This document shows positions 5,029 to 10,755 of a stretch of DNA of 34,172 nt, one piece after another. The stretch covers positions 1 to 34,172 of the forward strand of contig JAFQTN010000003.1 in NCBI GenBank assembly GCA_017409025.1, read 5' to 3'. Under the pieces are notes generated by a model. The model saw only the letters and a list, made by a program, of their open reading frames with translations, searched no databases and had not been told where the DNA came from. Position 1 is the first letter of the stretch, and each line of letters begins with the position of its first letter. Made by a program: the position numbers and the translations under genes. This stretch comes from Bacilli bacterium (GTDB taxonomy: Bacteria; Bacillota_I; Bacilli_A; RF39; UBA660).

Positions 5029-5055
5029 GAAAAACTAGATATTTTCTATCTAGTT
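5029..5055 (-). terminator. Terminator of the small membrane gene pair
   Basis: Perfect 9-pair hairpin, AACTAGATA (5033-5041) and TATCTAGTT (5047-5055). On the minus strand it is followed by TTTTTC. It overlaps the stop codon of the minus-strand gene and lies 20 bases after the convergent plus-strand stop. A near-identical hairpin recurs after the tRNA-Met gene at 12434-12457. Confidence 0.75.
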
Positions 5056-5542
5056 ATAGTATGAATTTAACAATTAATCCGATTAGTAAACATAAGACAA
5101 TACCAATTACTTCTCCGATTATTCCTTCTTTTATGTGATACCAATAATTTTTATATTCTTTTTTGATATCTTCTGTTCCTTTAAAGATGAATTTTTCTGA
5201 TTGACAAAACCAACATATATCTAATATGATAATATCGTATATATTGATGATTGTCCATATTAGAAGTGAAGATAAGAAACTGTCTTTAAAGTTGGTATAT
5301 CCATTTATATATCTTAATATTAGACTAACGCTTATGATGATTATTATAGCTACGATTGACTTTGCTAACATTTTCTTTTTATTGGTTGGTATTTTATCTT
5401 TATATTCTTTCATTGATTTTACTCTATCTCTTACTTTTGGTGGGTAGTTATAAAGAGTTGCTATAGGATTTTTTGAAATTATATAAACCATAGTAGTAAA
5501 TAATATGCCTAAGATTATACATTCAATTATAATTATCATCAT
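5054..5542 (-). CDS. Small integral membrane protein, unrecognised
   Basis: 162 residues, not recognised. Seen: a hydrophobic N-terminal segment (about 3-23), a cytoplasm-type basic loop containing NYPPKVRDRVKSMKEYKDK (about 32-50), three further hydrophobic segments (about 61-78, 90-110, 140-162) and a short CWFCQ motif near 110. The start overlaps the upstream 97-residue gene by 20 bases, indicating coupled translation. A terminator hairpin overlaps its stop. It may belong with the kinase-linked membrane genes upstream, but it has a separate promoter. No function is claimed. Confidence 0.6.
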   Translation of the reverse strand: MMIIIIECIILGILFTTMVYIISKNPIATLYNYPPKVRDRVKSMKEYKDKIPTNKKKMLAKSIVAIIIIISVSLILRYINGYTNFKDSFLSSLLIWTIINIYDIIILDICWFCQSEKFIFKGTEDIKKEYKNYWYHIKEGIIGEVIGIVLCLLIGLIVKFIL

Positions 5543-5816
5543 TACTTCCTTTCTTTTCTATGTATACTTGTTTAAATTTCTTTATGCATCCGATTAGTAA
5601 AGCTATACTACAGATAATAAGGGCTATTGATAAAGCAATACTTTCTTTAGATATGTGTAATCCTAATAGAAAAATAGCTATAATTATTGTTAAGAATATT
5701 ATTGTTATTATGATAGTCATCGGATATCTAATCCATTTGGGTACTTTTTTATTTGAACTAACTTCAATAGATCCTTCTAAGATTAGTTCTAAAATAAATT
5801 CTATTAATAAATCCAT
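5523..5816 (-). CDS. Small two/three-TM membrane protein, unrecognised
   Basis: 97 residues with an acidic, hydrophobic N-terminus (LIEFILELILEGS), two strong membrane segments (about 30-55 and 60-79) and a basic, hydrophilic tail. The start has AAAAGGAG 5 bases before ATG and its own extended -10 promoter (5840-5848). It is the first gene of a two-gene unit, ending in TGA inside the next gene. Function unknown. A different reading frame on the plus strand is open here but lacks a ribosome site and was set aside. Confidence 0.6.
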   Translation of the reverse strand: MDLLIEFILELILEGSIEVSSNKKVPKWIRYPMTIIITIIFLTIIIAIFLLGLHISKESIALSIALIICSIALLIGCIKKFKQVYIEKKGSNDDNYN

Positions 5817-5839: not shown

Positions 5840-5848
5840 ATTATAACA
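5840..5848 (-). promoter_or_regulatory. Extended -10 promoter of the small membrane gene pair
   Basis: The minus strand reads TGTTATAAT 24 bases before the ATG at 5816. The -35 region overlaps the U-tract of the preceding terminator and shows no good hexamer. Confidence 0.55.
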
Positions 5849-5877
5849 TAAAAAAATAGGTTTTAATGACCTATTTT
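5849..5877 (-). terminator. Terminator after the four-gene membrane unit
   Basis: Perfect hairpin of 9 pairs, AAAATAGGT (5869-5877 on the minus strand) with ACCTATTTT (5853-5861), followed by a T-run. It starts inside the stop codon of the 218-residue membrane gene. Confidence 0.8.
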
Positions 5878-6532
5878 AATTACTTTCTAAACAAATAATT
5901 TTTTTAATATTTATTATCATGTACAATCCCATTATCATAATTATTACACTAACACCCATTCCTGTATAACCATTTATATTTGCTAAATCATATTCACTGG
6001 CATAGGTGTCCAATAGTACAACTTGAGTTAAAACAATTGATGTTAGGGCATTGGCAAAGCTAGTGATTTTTACTGATTTCAATATTGGACTACTCTTTCT
6101 TTTATATTTTACCATACCATATATGGACCAGCTAATAGACCAAAATGCATTTAAGGCTACTAAATAGGTTAAATATTCATGCATTATGGTGTTTGTTCCT
6201 TTATAATACATATATACACTAACAAAAAAGTACATAATTCCTAGTATGATTAATAATACCCCATTATGTAAATAATTCTTATATCCTATTTCTTTCTTTA
6301 TATTTTCATCTTTGGTACTTCTTCTTTTACCATAATTTCTAATAGAAAAAAATCTAGATATTGATAAAACTGCTAAAAAACAAGCATTTACAAAGAACCA
6401 TAGTGATGGTATTGTGATAGAAAATATAAACTTTGTAATAGCAATTATTATATTTCCTATAGTTGTAAATATCAATAATAACATTGTTTTATCATTTTTT
6501 TCTAGATTTTTAATTTCCTTAATTAATTTCAT
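5876..6532 (-). CDS. Six-TM membrane protein, unrecognised
   Basis: 218 residues with six hydrophobic segments (roughly 19-38, 44-60, 86-107, 119-138, 150-170, 188-208). Loop residues include a basic stretch (RNYGKRRSTKDENIKKE, near 65-81) and KYKRKSS near 142. The start codon overlaps the stop of the upstream 131-residue gene by one base (TAATG), so the two are translationally coupled. Last gene before a terminator. Its position behind a two-component system and an RR-box promoter suggests an envelope-stress or antimicrobial-response role by inference only. I cannot name the family. Confidence 0.65.
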   Translation of the reverse strand: MKLIKEIKNLEKNDKTMLLLIFTTIGNIIIAITKFIFSITIPSLWFFVNACFLAVLSISRFFSIRNYGKRRSTKDENIKKEIGYKNYLHNGVLLIILGIMYFFVSVYMYYKGTNTIMHEYLTYLVALNAFWSISWSIYGMVKYKRKSSPILKSVKITSFANALTSIVLTQVVLLDTYASEYDLANINGYTGMGVSVIIMIMGLYMIINIKKIICLESN

Positions 6533-6927
6533 TATTTTTTATCGTTTTTGATATAAGAATATACTGGGTAATTTAGTACACAAATAATAAGACCTACAAC
6601 ACCTGTTACGATACCTACTAACATGTCATTTTTAGTAGCACCTTCAACTAAAACTTTGCTCATACCAAATCCCATTATTAATGAACCAACTATACCGATT
6701 ATGAAAGTAAGTACTATTCCCCAATTAATAGGGCCACGAGGTTTTCTTGGATGATTTTTTCTATAAACTGGTATGATACATAATAGAATGATAAATCCTA
6801 TTATTGATACTACTACTCCTTGAGTGAATAAATTCCATTCAGGTAGTAGACACATCGTCATTCCGATTGCAAACACTAGTCCACCAATTGTTCCTAAAAT
6901 AATTTGAATTAAAGTTTCTTTTTTCAT
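6532..6927 (-). CDS. Four-TM small membrane protein, unrecognised
   Basis: 131 residues. Two repeated halves are visible: each begins with a glycine-rich membrane segment (IILGTIGGLVFAIGMTMC near 9-26 and FIIGIVGSLIMGFGMSK near 75-91) followed by a second hydrophobic segment that ends in PVY (near 53 and 121). This looks like an internal duplication. The centre is basic and proline-rich (RKNHPRKPRGP). AGGAGG-type site GTGGAGGTAATCAA precedes the ATG. Lies between the small helical protein and the six-TM protein in the same unit. Function unknown. Confidence 0.65.
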   Translation of the reverse strand: MKKETLIQIILGTIGGLVFAIGMTMCLLPEWNLFTQGVVVSIIGFIILLCIIPVYRKNHPRKPRGPINWGIVLTFIIGIVGSLIMGFGMSKVLVEGATKNDMLVGIVTGVVGLIICVLNYPVYSYIKNDKK

Positions 6928-6945
6928 TTGATTACCTCCACTATT

Positions 6946-7257
6946 TTACTTATTAGTTAAGTTATTTATGTTTTGTCTTTGTTCTTCTAACATTTTTTTA
7001 TAATTTTCTCTGTTTTCTTCTGCAATTGCTTTTCCATCTCTTTCCATATGTGATAAAACTACTTTTGCTTTGCCTGCTAATCCTTTAGCATCTTTAAATT
7101 CTTGGAAATCTGGATTAGTTTTCTTTGCTTCTTCAAATCTTGCTTTGCTATCTGCTTTTACTGCTTCAAAGTTTTCCTTATCGATTTCGTGTTGTTTTTT
7201 TGCACTTTCTTTCATGTCATCAAATGCTCTTTTTAAAAATCCTTTTTTTTCTGACAT
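6946..7257 (-). CDS. Small charged helical protein of the kinase-linked unit
   Basis: 103 residues, soluble, very rich in Lys, Glu and Ala, predicted as long amphipathic helices. It starts MSEKKGFLKRAFDDMKESA. I have seen similar short proteins in Firmicutes next to envelope stress genes, but no biochemical function is known to me. The start is the ATG at 7257: GAGAGG lies 9 bases upstream, whereas the open frame beyond it begins with a TTG that has no site. First gene after a promoter carrying the TTTACC/TTTACT direct repeat, so probably strongly induced by the neighbouring response regulator. Confidence 0.65.
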   Translation of the reverse strand: MSEKKGFLKRAFDDMKESAKKQHEIDKENFEAVKADSKARFEEAKKTNPDFQEFKDAKGLAGKAKVVLSHMERDGKAIAEENRENYKKMLEEQRQNINNLTNK

Positions 7258-7283
7258 AATATTTTTCCTCTCTTTCAATATAA

Positions 7284-7315
7284 ATATTATTATATGAAAG
7301 TAAAGTTATGGTAAA
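7284..7315 (-). promoter_or_regulatory. Response-regulator-type promoter, copy 1
   Basis: Minus strand: TTTACC (7310-7315), 5 bases, TTTACT (7299-7304), an 11-base period typical of OmpR/PhoB-family sites. A TAATAT (7284-7289) lies 9 bases after the box; TATAAT (7289-7294) is an alternative -10. There is no consensus -35, as expected for an activator-dependent promoter. The region just upstream (TTTAAAAA) is shared with copy 2 at 9730-9761. Confidence 0.6.
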
Positions 7316-7337
7316 TTTTTAAATGTTTTTGAGAAAA

Positions 7338-8384
7338 TTAATTTTTATAGAGTGTAACTGTGAAGATACTTCCTTTGTTTGGTTCACTTTCTACTTTTAT
7401 TTTTCCTTTTACTAATTCTACTATTCTGCTTACAATTGTTAATCCTAGTCCTAGCCCCTTTGTAGTTTTACTTTTATCTACCTGATAAAATTTATTAAAT
7501 ATTTGTTTTATTTCTTCCTTTGTCATTCCTATTCCTGAATCAATTACACTAAATATGATAGTTTGTGAATATACTCTTAAATTAATTATGATATTTCCGC
7601 CATCAGGTGTATATTTTATAGCGTTGTTAATTAAATTCATCCATAAGTGTTCCATAATTTCTTCACTACCAAAATATTTTACTTCTTCTAAGTTACATGT
7701 AACATTTATTTTCTTTTTACTATATTCTGGTTCTAATACGATAATACATCTTCTTATTTGTTCATCAAGAGAAAAATATTTTTTATTTGGTATTATTCCT
7801 TGTGAATTAAGTTTTGTAAGTAATATTGAACTATTTGCTAGGTGGGTTAATTTAGCTGACTCTTCAACTATTATTTTTAAATATTTTTTTTCAAGTTTCT
7901 CATCAATTTTTTCTTCTAATAAGAGTTCTGCAAATCCTTTGATTGAAGTAATGGGTGTTTTAAATTCGTGAGAATAATTATTTACAAATTCATCTTGTAG
8001 GGTATTGGCTTTTTTTAGTTCTTCTTCTAATTTATTAAAGTTATCATAAGCGACGGCAAAAATGGCAGATTTTTTAGGATCTAATTTAGCATGATAATCT
8101 CCACTAGCAGCTTTTGCTAGACCATCTGCTAAGTCATTCGCTTGTTTAGCCATCGATTTGGCGTTTATCATATTAATGATTGTTATAAACAGAGCCATTG
8201 GAATTATTAATCCAAGTGATCTTAGAAGTGGTTCCCATGATAATTTATAATCATTCATTCCCCATTCAACGATACAAAATGATAACATTGAAGATACTAG
8301 TATAAAGATAGTTTGAATTCTTAACCATTTTAATATATTTTTGTAAGTTATTTCATCTATATGAAGTTTATTTTTCTTCTGCAT
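7338..8384 (-). CDS. Sensor histidine kinase (HAMP-HisKA-HATPase)
   Basis: 348-residue membrane sensor that autophosphorylates and passes phosphate to the adjacent regulator. Seen: TM1 about 23-40, a very short outside loop (about 41-54), TM2 about 55-73, HAMP about 74-125, H-box NNYSHEFKTPITS with phospho-acceptor His139, N-box MNLINNAIKYTP (249-260), G1 DSGIGM (282-287) and G2 KGLGLGLTI (309-317). The roughly 14-residue outer loop is like the intramembrane-sensing kinases that respond to cell-envelope stress together with membrane partner proteins. The start overlaps the regulator gene by 17 bases. Confidence 0.92.
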   Translation of the reverse strand: MQKKNKLHIDEITYKNILKWLRIQTIFILVSSMLSFCIVEWGMNDYKLSWEPLLRSLGLIIPMALFITIINMINAKSMAKQANDLADGLAKAASGDYHAKLDPKKSAIFAVAYDNFNKLEEELKKANTLQDEFVNNYSHEFKTPITSIKGFAELLLEEKIDEKLEKKYLKIIVEESAKLTHLANSSILLTKLNSQGIIPNKKYFSLDEQIRRCIIVLEPEYSKKKINVTCNLEEVKYFGSEEIMEHLWMNLINNAIKYTPDGGNIIINLRVYSQTIIFSVIDSGIGMTKEEIKQIFNKFYQVDKSKTTKGLGLGLTIVSRIVELVKGKIKVESEPNKGSIFTVTLYKN

Positions 8385-9051
8385 TTAACATCACCACTTT
8401 ATAACCTAATCCTTTTACTGAGATAATTTCAAAATATTTAACATCTTTTAATTTATTACGTATCTTATTGATATGAGTCTTAATTGTATCTTCACTACTA
8501 TTTGATTCATAACCCCAGATAGCTTCTAGTAATTGTATTTTTGTCATAACTTTATTTGGATAAGATAGTAATTTAAATAATAGTTCAAATTCTTTTTTAG
8601 TAAGTTCTATTTTATTTCCATCGTTATATACAGAATAATCATTTTCATCCATTATGAAGGTTCCAATGTTAATTTTCATTTTACTTGAAATATTGGCTCT
8701 TCTTAATAGGGCTTTGATTCTAAGTAGTAGTTCTTCATAATCTATTGGTTTAGTAATATAGTCGTCTATCCCTAGGTCATATCCCATTCTTTTTGATTCA
8801 AATGTAGACTTTGCTGTTAGAAACAATATAGGTACTTCTTCTTTGTTATCTCTTAGACATTTTAACATTTCATAACCATCCATAACTGGCATCATGATAT
8901 CTGTTACGATTAGGTCAATTTGTTTTTCATAAAAAATATCAATAGCTTGACTTCCATTTTCTGCAGTTACTACATTATAGTATTTTTTTAATCTTGCTTC
9001 GGTTAATAATCTTGTGTGTTCGTTATCTTCAACAACTAATATTGTTACCAT
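8368..9051 (-). CDS. OmpR/PhoB-family response regulator
   Basis: 227 residues: receiver domain (1-115) with acidic pocket E8/D9, phospho-acceptor Asp51 in VTDIMMP, Thr79 and Lys101 in DYITKP, then a winged-helix DNA-binding domain (about 127-225; KKEFELLFKLLSYPNKVMTK and ending VKGLGYKVV). GAGGTGAT lies 5 bases before ATG. It is the first gene of a regulator-kinase operon with an extended -10 promoter that lacks the TTTACC repeat. Likely targets are the two neighbouring promoters that carry TTTACC-N5-TTTACC/T. Confidence 0.93.
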   Translation of the reverse strand: MVTILVVEDNEHTRLLTEARLKKYYNVVTAENGSQAIDIFYEKQIDLIVTDIMMPVMDGYEMLKCLRDNKEEVPILFLTAKSTFESKRMGYDLGIDDYITKPIDYEELLLRIKALLRRANISSKMKINIGTFIMDENDYSVYNDGNKIELTKKEFELLFKLLSYPNKVMTKIQLLEAIWGYESNSSEDTIKTHINKIRNKLKDVKYFEIISVKGLGYKVVMLNAEEK

Positions 9052-9072
9052 AATATCACCTCTTTTGTTTGT

Positions 9073-9081
9073 ATTATATCA
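9073..9081 (-). promoter_or_regulatory. Extended -10 promoter of the two-component operon
   Basis: Minus strand TGATATAAT, 21 bases before the regulator ATG. No convincing -35 (the region is TTTCTTT, part of the preceding terminator's U-tract). No direct-repeat box, so expression is probably constitutive. Confidence 0.55.
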
Positions 9082-9092
9082 TTAAAATAAAG

Positions 9093-9117
9093 AAAAAAGA
9101 ATTATCGGTGATAATTC
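9093..9117 (-). terminator. Terminator of the coiled-coil membrane gene
   Basis: Minus strand GAATTATC (9110-9117), 3-base loop, GATAATTC (9099-9106), then TTTTTT. Located 5 bases after the stop at 9122. Confidence 0.85.
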
Positions 9118-9121
9118 CTAC

Positions 9122-9688
9122 TTAATCAATTAATTTTCTTGCTTGTTCACAACTATCATATATAGTATTATATTGTTCTTCGATTAAAGAAATATTTTCT
9201 TTTTGTGTTTTAACTTTTACTTTTATATATGCAAAGTAGCCTAAAAACCAACCAGTTAACCCAATAATTCCACATATAATACACGAAATTATTAATGGAT
9301 TTGTTGCAGTTATAGAAAACACAGAAAGAGCTAAGAAAATAGTTCCAATTAATCCAATAGTCAATGCAGAAATTATTCCTTTTGTGTATGGTTCTTTTTC
9401 TAATGTTTCTATTTCTTTTAAAGATGATTCTAATTTTCTTTGTAGAGAAAGTAACTCTACTTTATTTTTGATTCTTCTGTCTCTTTTAAATTTAAGGTTT
9501 ACTAATTTATTATTGTTAACATTAGAATTATTAATATAATAATCTTCACTATCTATTAAAGATGTATTATTAATTAATATCCATCCAAAATTTTCATAAC
9601 AATCAATATATAATGGTTCAAATTCTGATTTTACATTTAAAGATATATATTCATATGCAACAAAATCTTTAGTTTCACTATTTTTCAT
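9122..9688 (-). CDS. Coiled-coil protein with two-TM hairpin, unrecognised
   Basis: 188 residues, family not recognised. Seen: a folded-looking N-terminal part (1-65) with Tyr/Phe/Trp-rich strands, a charged coiled coil (about 70-100; KNKVELLSLQRKLESSLKEI), two membrane segments forming a hairpin (about 104-125 and 130-153; the second has GIIGLTGWFLGYFAY), and a second helical region (about 155-188). AAAGGAGG lies 6 bases before ATG. It is a single-gene unit whose promoter holds the perfect TTTACC-N5-TTTACC repeat, so it is probably a regulon member of the adjacent two-component system. The symmetric helix-TM-TM-helix layout suggests a membrane-anchored cytoplasmic coiled coil. Confidence 0.7.
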   Translation of the reverse strand: MKNSETKDFVAYEYISLNVKSEFEPLYIDCYENFGWILINNTSLIDSEDYYINNSNVNNNKLVNLKFKRDRRIKNKVELLSLQRKLESSLKEIETLEKEPYTKGIISALTIGLIGTIFLALSVFSITATNPLIISCIICGIIGLTGWFLGYFAYIKVKVKTQKENISLIEEQYNTIYDSCEQARKLID

Positions 9689-9729
9689 AAATACCTCCTT
9701 TAATTGCTTTTGTCAATTTACAGTTATTA

Positions 9730-9761
9730 ATTATATATATAATAGGTAAATTTTTGGTAAA
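9730..9761 (-). promoter_or_regulatory. Response-regulator-type promoter, copy 2
   Basis: Minus strand: TTTACC (9756-9761), AAAAA, TTTACC (9745-9750), 9 bases, TATAAT (9730-9735). A perfect 6-base direct repeat with an 11-base period sits where the -35 should be. The same layout and an upstream TTTAAAAA are found at 7284-7315. Confidence 0.65.
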
Positions 9762-9843: not shown

Positions 9844-10755
9844 TTATTTTTCTAAATTATTAATATTTTCTTTAATTATATCAATTGATCTTTGTAGTTT
9901 GTCTTCTTCTTCTTCAGTTAACTTAAGATATACTCTTCTTTCTGCACCATCTTTGTTTAAAATGGCAGGTAATCCTACATAAACATCGTTTTCTTCATCG
10001 TACACAGATACTGGGATGATAGTATTTTCGTTACCAAGTATAGCATTAGTTATTCTTACCATAGCCATACCAATCCCGTAGTATGTTGCTCCTTTTCTAT
10101 TAATTATTTCATAGGCTGCATTTCTTACATTGTTTTCTATTTCATTTAATTCTTCTTCATTAAAGAACTCTTTAATATTTTGAAGACTTATGTTAGCGTT
10201 ACTCCATGGGATAAATTCTGAATCACCATGTTCACCAATTACATAGGCTTGAATATTTTTAGAATTTATACATAGTTTTTTACCTATAATTAATTGAAGT
10301 CTTGCTGTATCTAGACTTGTACCGGTACCTATTACTCTGCCTTTAGGTAATCCTGAATATTTATAAGTTAGATATGTCATTACATCTAAGGGATTAGTAG
10401 CAACTAGAAAGATTCCATCAAAACCTGATGCCATAACATTAGAAACGATATCTTTAAAAATTGAAGCATTTTTGTTTATTAAGTCTGTTCTAGTTTCACC
10501 TGGTTTTTGATTTGCTCCTGCTGCAATTACTACTATTCTAGCGTCTTTACAGTCACTATAAATTCCTTTATTAATACTTATTTTTGAAGGAGCATAAGGT
10601 AGGCAATGATTTAAATCCATTACTTCGCCTTCTACTCTTTCTTCGTTAATATCTATTAACATCAATTTATTAACATATGTTCTTTGATTAATTAGAGCAT
10701 AAGCATAGCTCATACCTACATTACCACAACCAATAATAACTACTTTATTATTCAT
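9844..10755 (-). CDS. ldh: L-lactate dehydrogenase
   Basis: NAD-dependent reduction of pyruvate to L-lactate in the cytoplasm, regenerating NAD during fermentation. Seen: Rossmann motif GCGNVG (9-14), substrate loop ANQKPGETR (81-89) with Gln83 (lactate rather than malate specificity), ATNPLDV (119-125), DTAR (149-152) and the catalytic IGEHGDSE with His176. The 303 residues are slightly shorter than the usual 310-320. A site AAGGAGAG lies 7 bases before ATG. Single gene with promoter, a palindrome at the -35 region, and a terminator. Confidence 0.95.
   Translation of the reverse strand: MNNKVVIIGCGNVGMSYAYALINQRTYVNKLMLIDINEERVEGEVMDLNHCLPYAPSKISINKGIYSDCKDARIVVIAAGANQKPGETRTDLINKNASIFKDIVSNVMASGFDGIFLVATNPLDVMTYLTYKYSGLPKGRVIGTGTSLDTARLQLIIGKKLCINSKNIQAYVIGEHGDSEFIPWSNANISLQNIKEFFNEEELNEIENNVRNAAYEIINRKGATYYGIGMAMVRITNAILGNENTIIPVSVYDEENDVYVGLPAILNKDGAERRVYLKLTEEEEDKLQRSIDIIKENINNLEK

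Follow-up and report, generated by a model that had tools for sequence, protein, structure and literature searches.

Paired TTTACC repeats as probable binding sites of a local two-component regulator and a putative promoter code for small membrane proteins in a Bacilli bacterium

The stretch analysed here, a 34,172-nucleotide piece of a Bacilli bacterium genome (assembly GCA_017409025.1, contig JAFQTN010000003.1, positions 1 to 34,172; hereafter the window), encodes on its minus strand the response regulator and histidine kinase of a two-component system (TCS). On either side of this pair lies a promoter with a direct hexamer repeat of 11-bp period, termed box A and box B. A sequence-only reading had proposed that the two boxes define a probable regulon of the local TCS, and the comparative evidence below supports that proposal: judged from sequence, the boxes almost certainly mark genes turned on by the local regulator. 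The central elements are the following.

9745..9761, minus strand: box A, TTTACC-AAAAA-TTTACC, two half-sites repeated head-to-tail at 11 bp and placed in the -35 region ahead of a gene for a 188-aa protein
9730..9735, minus strand: -10 element of box A, TATAAT, exactly 9 nt past the box
8368..9051, minus strand: OmpR/PhoB-type response regulator with receiver and winged-helix domains (Pfam Response_reg 2e-27, Trans_reg_C 4e-20), recognition helix TIKTHINKIRNKL
7338..8384, minus strand: histidine kinase of the intramembrane-sensing type (HisKA and HATPase_c; hydropathy)
9073..9078, minus strand: -10 element TATAAT of the regulator-kinase operon, with no box upstream in the sequence
7299..7315, minus strand: box B, TTTACC-ATAAC-TTTACT, upstream of a three-gene operon
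7284..7294, minus strand: -10 candidates of box B, either TATAAT at +4 (7289-7294) or TAATAT at +9 (7284-7289)

Coordinates and strand of both repeats were exact in the sequence-only reading, as was its placement of an OmpR-type regulator between them. It had noticed a common sequence just upstream of the boxes, and TTTAAAAA indeed stands directly ahead of box A and box B alike. It had also seen no further pair of this kind; the pattern TTTACYN5TTTACY matches the window exactly twice, against 0.23 matches expected from dinucleotide shuffles. Its -10-like hexamer 9 bases downstream holds as a perfect TATAAT for box A and in weaker form for box B, where the perfect TATAAT lies at +4.

The window genome comprises 1.28 Mb in 37 contigs. 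Among its seven matches to the loose pattern, boxes A and B are the only ones of the strict form TTTACC-N5-TTTACY, and neither is more than about 1.1 kb away from the gene for the regulator. When the pair is combined with a -10 at +9 (TTTACN6TTTACN10TANNNT), the genome again yields two matches, boxes A and B; the reversed control yields one. Two of the five other loose-pattern matches fall in coding sequence. Another, TTTACT-GGATA-TTTACC (G000:C20:42396-42412, L033), is intergenic and points in the right direction ahead of a gene for a 124-aa protein; it has no -10 at +9 and is a possible weak third site.

The kinase has two transmembrane (TM) helices (residues 21-39 and 57-75 by hydropathy) that some 17 linker residues connect; it lacks an extracellular domain, and this design places it among intramembrane-sensing kinases (two TM helices, a linker below about 25 residues and no extracellular domain). 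The regulator, with its receiver and winged-helix Trans_reg_C domains, is of the OmpR/PhoB type; its orthologues are 42-58% identical, and the solved structures that best match its DNA-binding domain include ArlR, SaeR and VicR. Neither protein reaches an NCBIfam equivalog cut-off.

To compare the DNA around orthologous systems, repeats were counted in the intergenic DNA around the TCS with no sequence assumed, and gene calls in relatives were mechanical. The first set of loci (set A) came from a regulator scan of genome contigs that gave 80 loci, about 44 of them with the same regulator and a short-linker kinase. The second (set B) comprises 28 further loci, found by a later profile search of Bacilli genomes and unused in forming the hypothesis. 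In set A, exact 6-mer direct repeats at period 11 numbered 53, compared with 9.0 +/- 4.0 (maximum 21) in 200 dinucleotide shuffles and with 3-18 at the other distances from 6 to 24. The same period stood out in set B, with 45 6-mer repeats at 11 (14 loci) and at most 12 at any other distance (next: 21 and 22), and with 27 7-mer repeats at 11 versus at most 6 elsewhere. The usual set B element is GTTTAT-NTTCA-GTTTAT, and the repeat in relatives nearest to the window boxes is GTTTAY-N5-GTTTAY, found beside the orthologous TCS in Lachnospiraceae, Clostridia, Streptococcus and other Bacilli. The exact form TTTAC-N6-TTTAC was not found in set B, because most regulators there have other recognition helices, whereas the general period of 11 and the GTTTAY form did replicate.

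The distance to the -10 element is kept as well. Counting after the second half-site, and taking as TATAAT-like any hexamer with at least 5/6 matches, we found such a hexamer exactly at +9 in 7/14 sites of set A and 4/10 of set B (11/24 together), with only isolated occurrences at other offsets. The background is 1.9% per position, which gives nominal binomial values of 3e-13 for all 24 sites and 3e-5 for set B alone; sites of the two sets are not fully independent of phylogeny. Box A of the window therefore has precisely the consensus promoter of this regulator family, GTTTAC-N5-(A)TTTACC-N9-TATAAT. Individual loci illustrate the arrangement. In both G022 and G402, a -10 stands 10 nt past the end of tandem 11-bp units, upstream of a gene in the TCS cluster that is homologous to the 131-aa protein of the box B operon (described below), and in Pseudobutyrivibrio TTTACC-N5-TTAACC, 9 nt and TATTAT precede a run of genes that reaches a homologue of the 218-aa protein of that operon, a kinase and a regulator. 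Two Pseudobutyrivibrio loci (L041 and L042, 9744-9800) carry four tandem 11-bp units with another core (CCTAAC/CTAAT) upstream of a 131-family gene. Direct half-sites 11 bp apart that are kept with the regulator, stand in place of the -35 element and hold a fixed distance to the -10 (a 4/6 match at +9 for box B) characterize OmpR/PhoB boxes, and the window boxes are, by their sequence, of this head-to-tail kind, like those of CiaR or SaeR.

The half-site varies with the recognition helix. Where the regulator has N or S at the THIN-motif helix position of the window regulator, TTTAC and GTTTA repeats show a single peak, at distance 11, and where it has G at that position, this holds for GTTGA and TTGAA; the TTGA class is associated with the helix residue at p=0.0017. 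Seven relatives have K at the first variable helix position, and TTTAC-type boxes occur in six of them (L038, L041, L042, L046, L047 and L102) and not in L040. Such a shift of half-site with helix is what regulator binding and co-evolution of the boxes would predict. A sister regulator clade (L053, L059, L061, L063, L066, L070, L072 and L073) has GTTGA-N6-GTTGA or TTGAA boxes, often in three copies, and further clades show AGATTT or no visible repeat.

The units downstream of the boxes consist of the following features.

9122..9688, minus strand: 188-aa protein, predicted box A target, with a coiled coil and two TM helices (105-123 and 132-150; profile and hydropathy)
9097..9119, minus strand: terminator-like hairpin (GGAATTATC-ACC-GATAATTC and a T run) ending the 188-aa transcript, minimum free energy (MFE) -7.4 kcal/mol, z -2.9 to -4.3
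6946..7257, minus strand: box B operon gene 1, a Lys/Glu-rich helical soluble protein of 103 aa (110 from TTG), with ATG at 7257 after GAGAGG
6532..6927, minus strand: box B operon gene 2, a 131-aa protein with four TM helices, that is, two small membrane-domain copies (two profile matches, hydropathy)
5876..6532, minus strand: box B operon gene 3, a 218-aa six-helix membrane protein with the transmembrane fold of the cation diffusion facilitator (CDF)/ZnT proteins (AF2, Foldseek)
5853..5877, minus strand: terminator-like hairpin after the 218-aa gene (AAAATAGGT...ACCTATTTT and a T run), MFE -6.9 kcal/mol, z -2.9
5840..5845, minus strand: box-less -10 element TATAAT (from the sequence) for the genes of 97-aa and 162-aa membrane proteins

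The box A unit is monocistronic, the 188-aa gene being followed by its hairpin and then by the separate promoter of the regulator-kinase operon. What the sequence-only reading had described behind the box at 7299 as a small helical protein/membrane unit consists, more precisely, of three genes in one operon that ends at a hairpin, and no box precedes the TCS operon. The 97-aa and 162-aa membrane proteins (window 5054-5816) are served by a separate promoter, and the compared loci contain no clear relatives of them; because their -10 is box-less, their genes probably lie outside the box-controlled unit.

The two units are related through a small membrane domain. A profile from which all window proteins were left out matches the 131-aa protein twice (E 5e-29). 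In the 188-aa protein it matches the C-terminal half (E 1.8e-7), with a score of 28 bits versus 12 bits for the best of 2000 shuffles. A profile search of the genome, with a profile that includes both window proteins, found no third member of the family; both genes that the genome has for this membrane-domain family therefore lie in box-controlled units, one in each. The structure model of the 188-aa protein is of low confidence (pLDDT 70, pTM 0.47) and was left uninterpreted.

The model of the 218-aa protein (AF2, pLDDT 85) has the six-TM fold of CDF proteins and was matched by Foldseek to ZnT/YiiP chains (ZnT7, E 6e-4, prob 1.0), and Pfam Cation_efflux matches at 7e-5 with a score of 23.1, below the cut-off of 26.6. 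Its TM2 (SLWFFVNACFLAVLSIS) and TM5 (ITSFANALTSIVLTQVV) contain no D, E or H, so that the Asp/His metal ligands are absent, and the chain ends after TM6 without the cytoplasmic C-terminal metal-binding domain of CDF proteins. Since both ligands and domain are missing from this modelled fold, metal transport by the 218-aa protein is unlikely.

Homologues of the 218-aa protein occur in 24/243 genomes of the window's own family, and this ligand-less CDF/ZnT-fold pseudo-transporter family is present in 47/392 sampled genomes of the phylum. Orthologous TCS genes have a homologue of the 218-aa protein alongside them in G022, G402, Pseudobutyrivibrio, Streptococcus suis and Gallimonas. The 110-aa protein has homologues in 2/197 other genomes of the class (G022 and G180), the G022 copy being on the contig of the TCS orthologue; a profile of this protein, when iterated, began to collect kinase coiled coils and was set aside. 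At 10/12 family loci inspected, and also in G148 and G040, a divergent TetR gene stands beside the 218-aa homologue, usually in the order [small helical protein]-131-218, with the helical protein not identified in some. The 131-218 module lies beside TetR in L204-L214, L160 and L167 and beside the TCS in the window (5876-7278). No match to the TetR of the family relatives was found in the window genome; the window species therefore has this membrane module next to another regulator. Six genus mates, mostly incomplete genomes, lack the lactate dehydrogenase gene of the window (9844-10755), and the two genus mates listed lack the 218-aa gene; the block may therefore have been gained recently, or it may be a relic that other lineages have lost.

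Genes near the boxes or the TCS in relatives include those for MATE, ABC and RND-type transporters and a CTP-transferase-like protein, as well as diacylglycerol kinase plus acyltransferase and a PLD-type cardiolipin synthase. These neighbours and the short linker of the kinase suggest a signal from the membrane or envelope. We propose that the kinase would be stimulated, probably by membrane or envelope disturbance, and that the phosphorylated regulator would bind both half-sites head-to-tail, in place of a -35 element, and recruit RNA polymerase to a -10 that lies roughly 9 nt further downstream. The effect would be to switch on the 188-aa coiled-coil/two-TM gene at box A and, at box B, the operon of the helical, four-TM and six-TM pseudo-CDF proteins. 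The small membrane proteins would then probably act at the membrane as envelope-response effectors, as feedback partners of the kinase, or as both. We infer here that the regulator binds the boxes, that it activates instead of repressing, that the signal comes from the envelope and that the small proteins are effectors.

We give a probability of roughly 0.9 to the two boxes being binding sites through which the regulator encoded between them switches on units A and B; they almost certainly mark its targets because relatives keep the same layout beside the same regulator. Several observations weigh against this reading. The +9 hexamer of box B, TAATAT, matches the -10 consensus at only 4/6 positions. 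The loose TTTACY pair is not enriched genome-wide (7 matches versus 10 for the reversed control), and genome-wide enrichment of that form was rejected; the sequence-only reading had named random genome frequency as a refutation, which thus applies to the loose pattern and not to the strict and -10-spaced forms, exclusive to the two promoters. Conservation in relatives, another point on which it had staked its proposal, fails among the genus relatives, which lack the system and hence offer no close-range footprint, and holds for GTTTAY-N5-GTTTAY with the same -10 spacing beside the orthologous TCS. Six loci of set B lack a period-11 repeat; the regulators there have a K at the helix position. 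For TTTAC alone, a Fisher test comparing helix residue N/S with G is not significant (p=0.20), only the TTGA class reaching significance, and the association of motif class with helix is partly phylogenetic, with clade membership contributing.

In an A+T-rich genome where the loose pattern occurs at chance frequency, the repeats could be a chance likeness of AT-rich promoters; we find this scarcely credible and reject it on the comparative data, given the exclusivity of the strict form, the kept period and -10 spacing, and the co-variation with the helix. Nor is it at all probable that the boxes belong to another OmpR-type regulator, although the genome encodes at least two more (G000:C33 and G000:C27): the boxes flank the local regulator only, and its orthologues have the same repeats alongside, so this explanation too was rejected. 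Repression through the boxes is improbable. Box B does permit a TATAAT at +4 that would overlap bound protein, but the 9-10 nt between the last half-site and the -10, with no -35, are the activator layout of CiaR (PMC3091779) and recur in relatives. A weightier alternative, which we hold possible without favouring it, accepts the boxes as sites of this regulator and takes the proteins mainly for feedback partners that shut the kinase off, in the manner of SaeP/SaeQ with SaeS or LiaF with LiaS, rather than for protective effectors. The kinase has no extracellular sensing domain, the 218-aa homologues adjoin or overlap TCS genes in G022, G402 and Pseudobutyrivibrio, and SaeP and SaeQ, made from a SaeR-box promoter, bind SaeS (PMC5083920). 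In most family relatives, however, the 131-218 pair lies beside TetR with no kinase nearby, and these proteins therefore have a role for which this kinase is not needed.

Among known systems, PhoB/PhoP and WalR/VicR boxes are period-11 direct repeats in place of the -35, as in the window, but with other half-sites and regulons; the window regulator is far below cut-off in the NCBIfam PhoB, YycF/WalR and MtrA models. LiaFSR-LiaIH and Psp resemble the window in having a short-linker kinase with small helical and small membrane proteins as suspected output. LiaR, however, is of the NarL type, whereas the window regulator is OmpR-type and lies outside the NarL/LuxR class, and no match to the PspA or LiaF families was obtained in Pfam or NCBIfam.

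The box layout is a known activator layout, since CiaR and SaeR use a comparable arrangement. CiaR promoters have been searched as TTTAAG-N5-TTTAAG with 10 nt to TATAAT, and the final G of the half-site is described as essential (PMC3091779). CiaRH thus shares with the window the hexamer-N5-hexamer form, a very similar T-rich half-site and, roughly 10 nt past the box, an activator -10 (PMC3091779). Its half-sites nonetheless end in AG rather than CC/CT, so that the window boxes do not match the CiaR box; its conserved recognition helix is VVEVYVSKVRKKL instead of TIKTHINKIRNKL; and, by comparison, the window kinase lacks a sizeable extracytoplasmic domain. The Staphylococcus aureus SaeRS system, with its SaeR box GTTAA-N6-GTTAA and with SaeP/SaeQ feeding back on SaeS (PMC5083920), resembles the window in its 11-bp head-to-tail half-sites, OmpR-type regulator and two-TM kinase with a very short linker, and in having membrane-protein genes under box control (PMC5083920). 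In contrast to GTTAA, the window half-site is TTTACY/GTTTAY and does not match the SaeR box; the TCS promoter in the window has no box, no virulence targets are seen there, and the targets are instead the pseudo-CDF/131-family module. Literature searches for TTTACC, GTTTAC or GTTTAT boxes surfaced the SaeRS review alone and no earlier description.

Tentatively, we suggest that an unnamed, widespread Bacillota TCS family with the code GTTTAY-NTTCA-GTTTAY-N9-TATAAT (with clade half-sites such as GTTGA) may run a new membrane-protection or kinase-feedback module that combines a small repeated two-TM domain with a CDF-fold protein devoid of ligands and is wired to TetR in relatives. The analysis assigns, from sequence alone, a putative cognate promoter code to this common and apparently unnamed family, and the fixed -10 spacing makes regulon prediction and reporter tests feasible. 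The half-site and recognition-helix covariation over many loci offers a natural data set for DNA recognition by the OmpR family. For the biology of these bacteria, the boxes would connect a short-linker kinase with a family of small two-TM domains and with an uncharacterised membrane protein that has the CDF fold but lacks metal ligands, with one membrane module seen beside two different regulator types and with an unstudied set of small membrane proteins as the probable targets.

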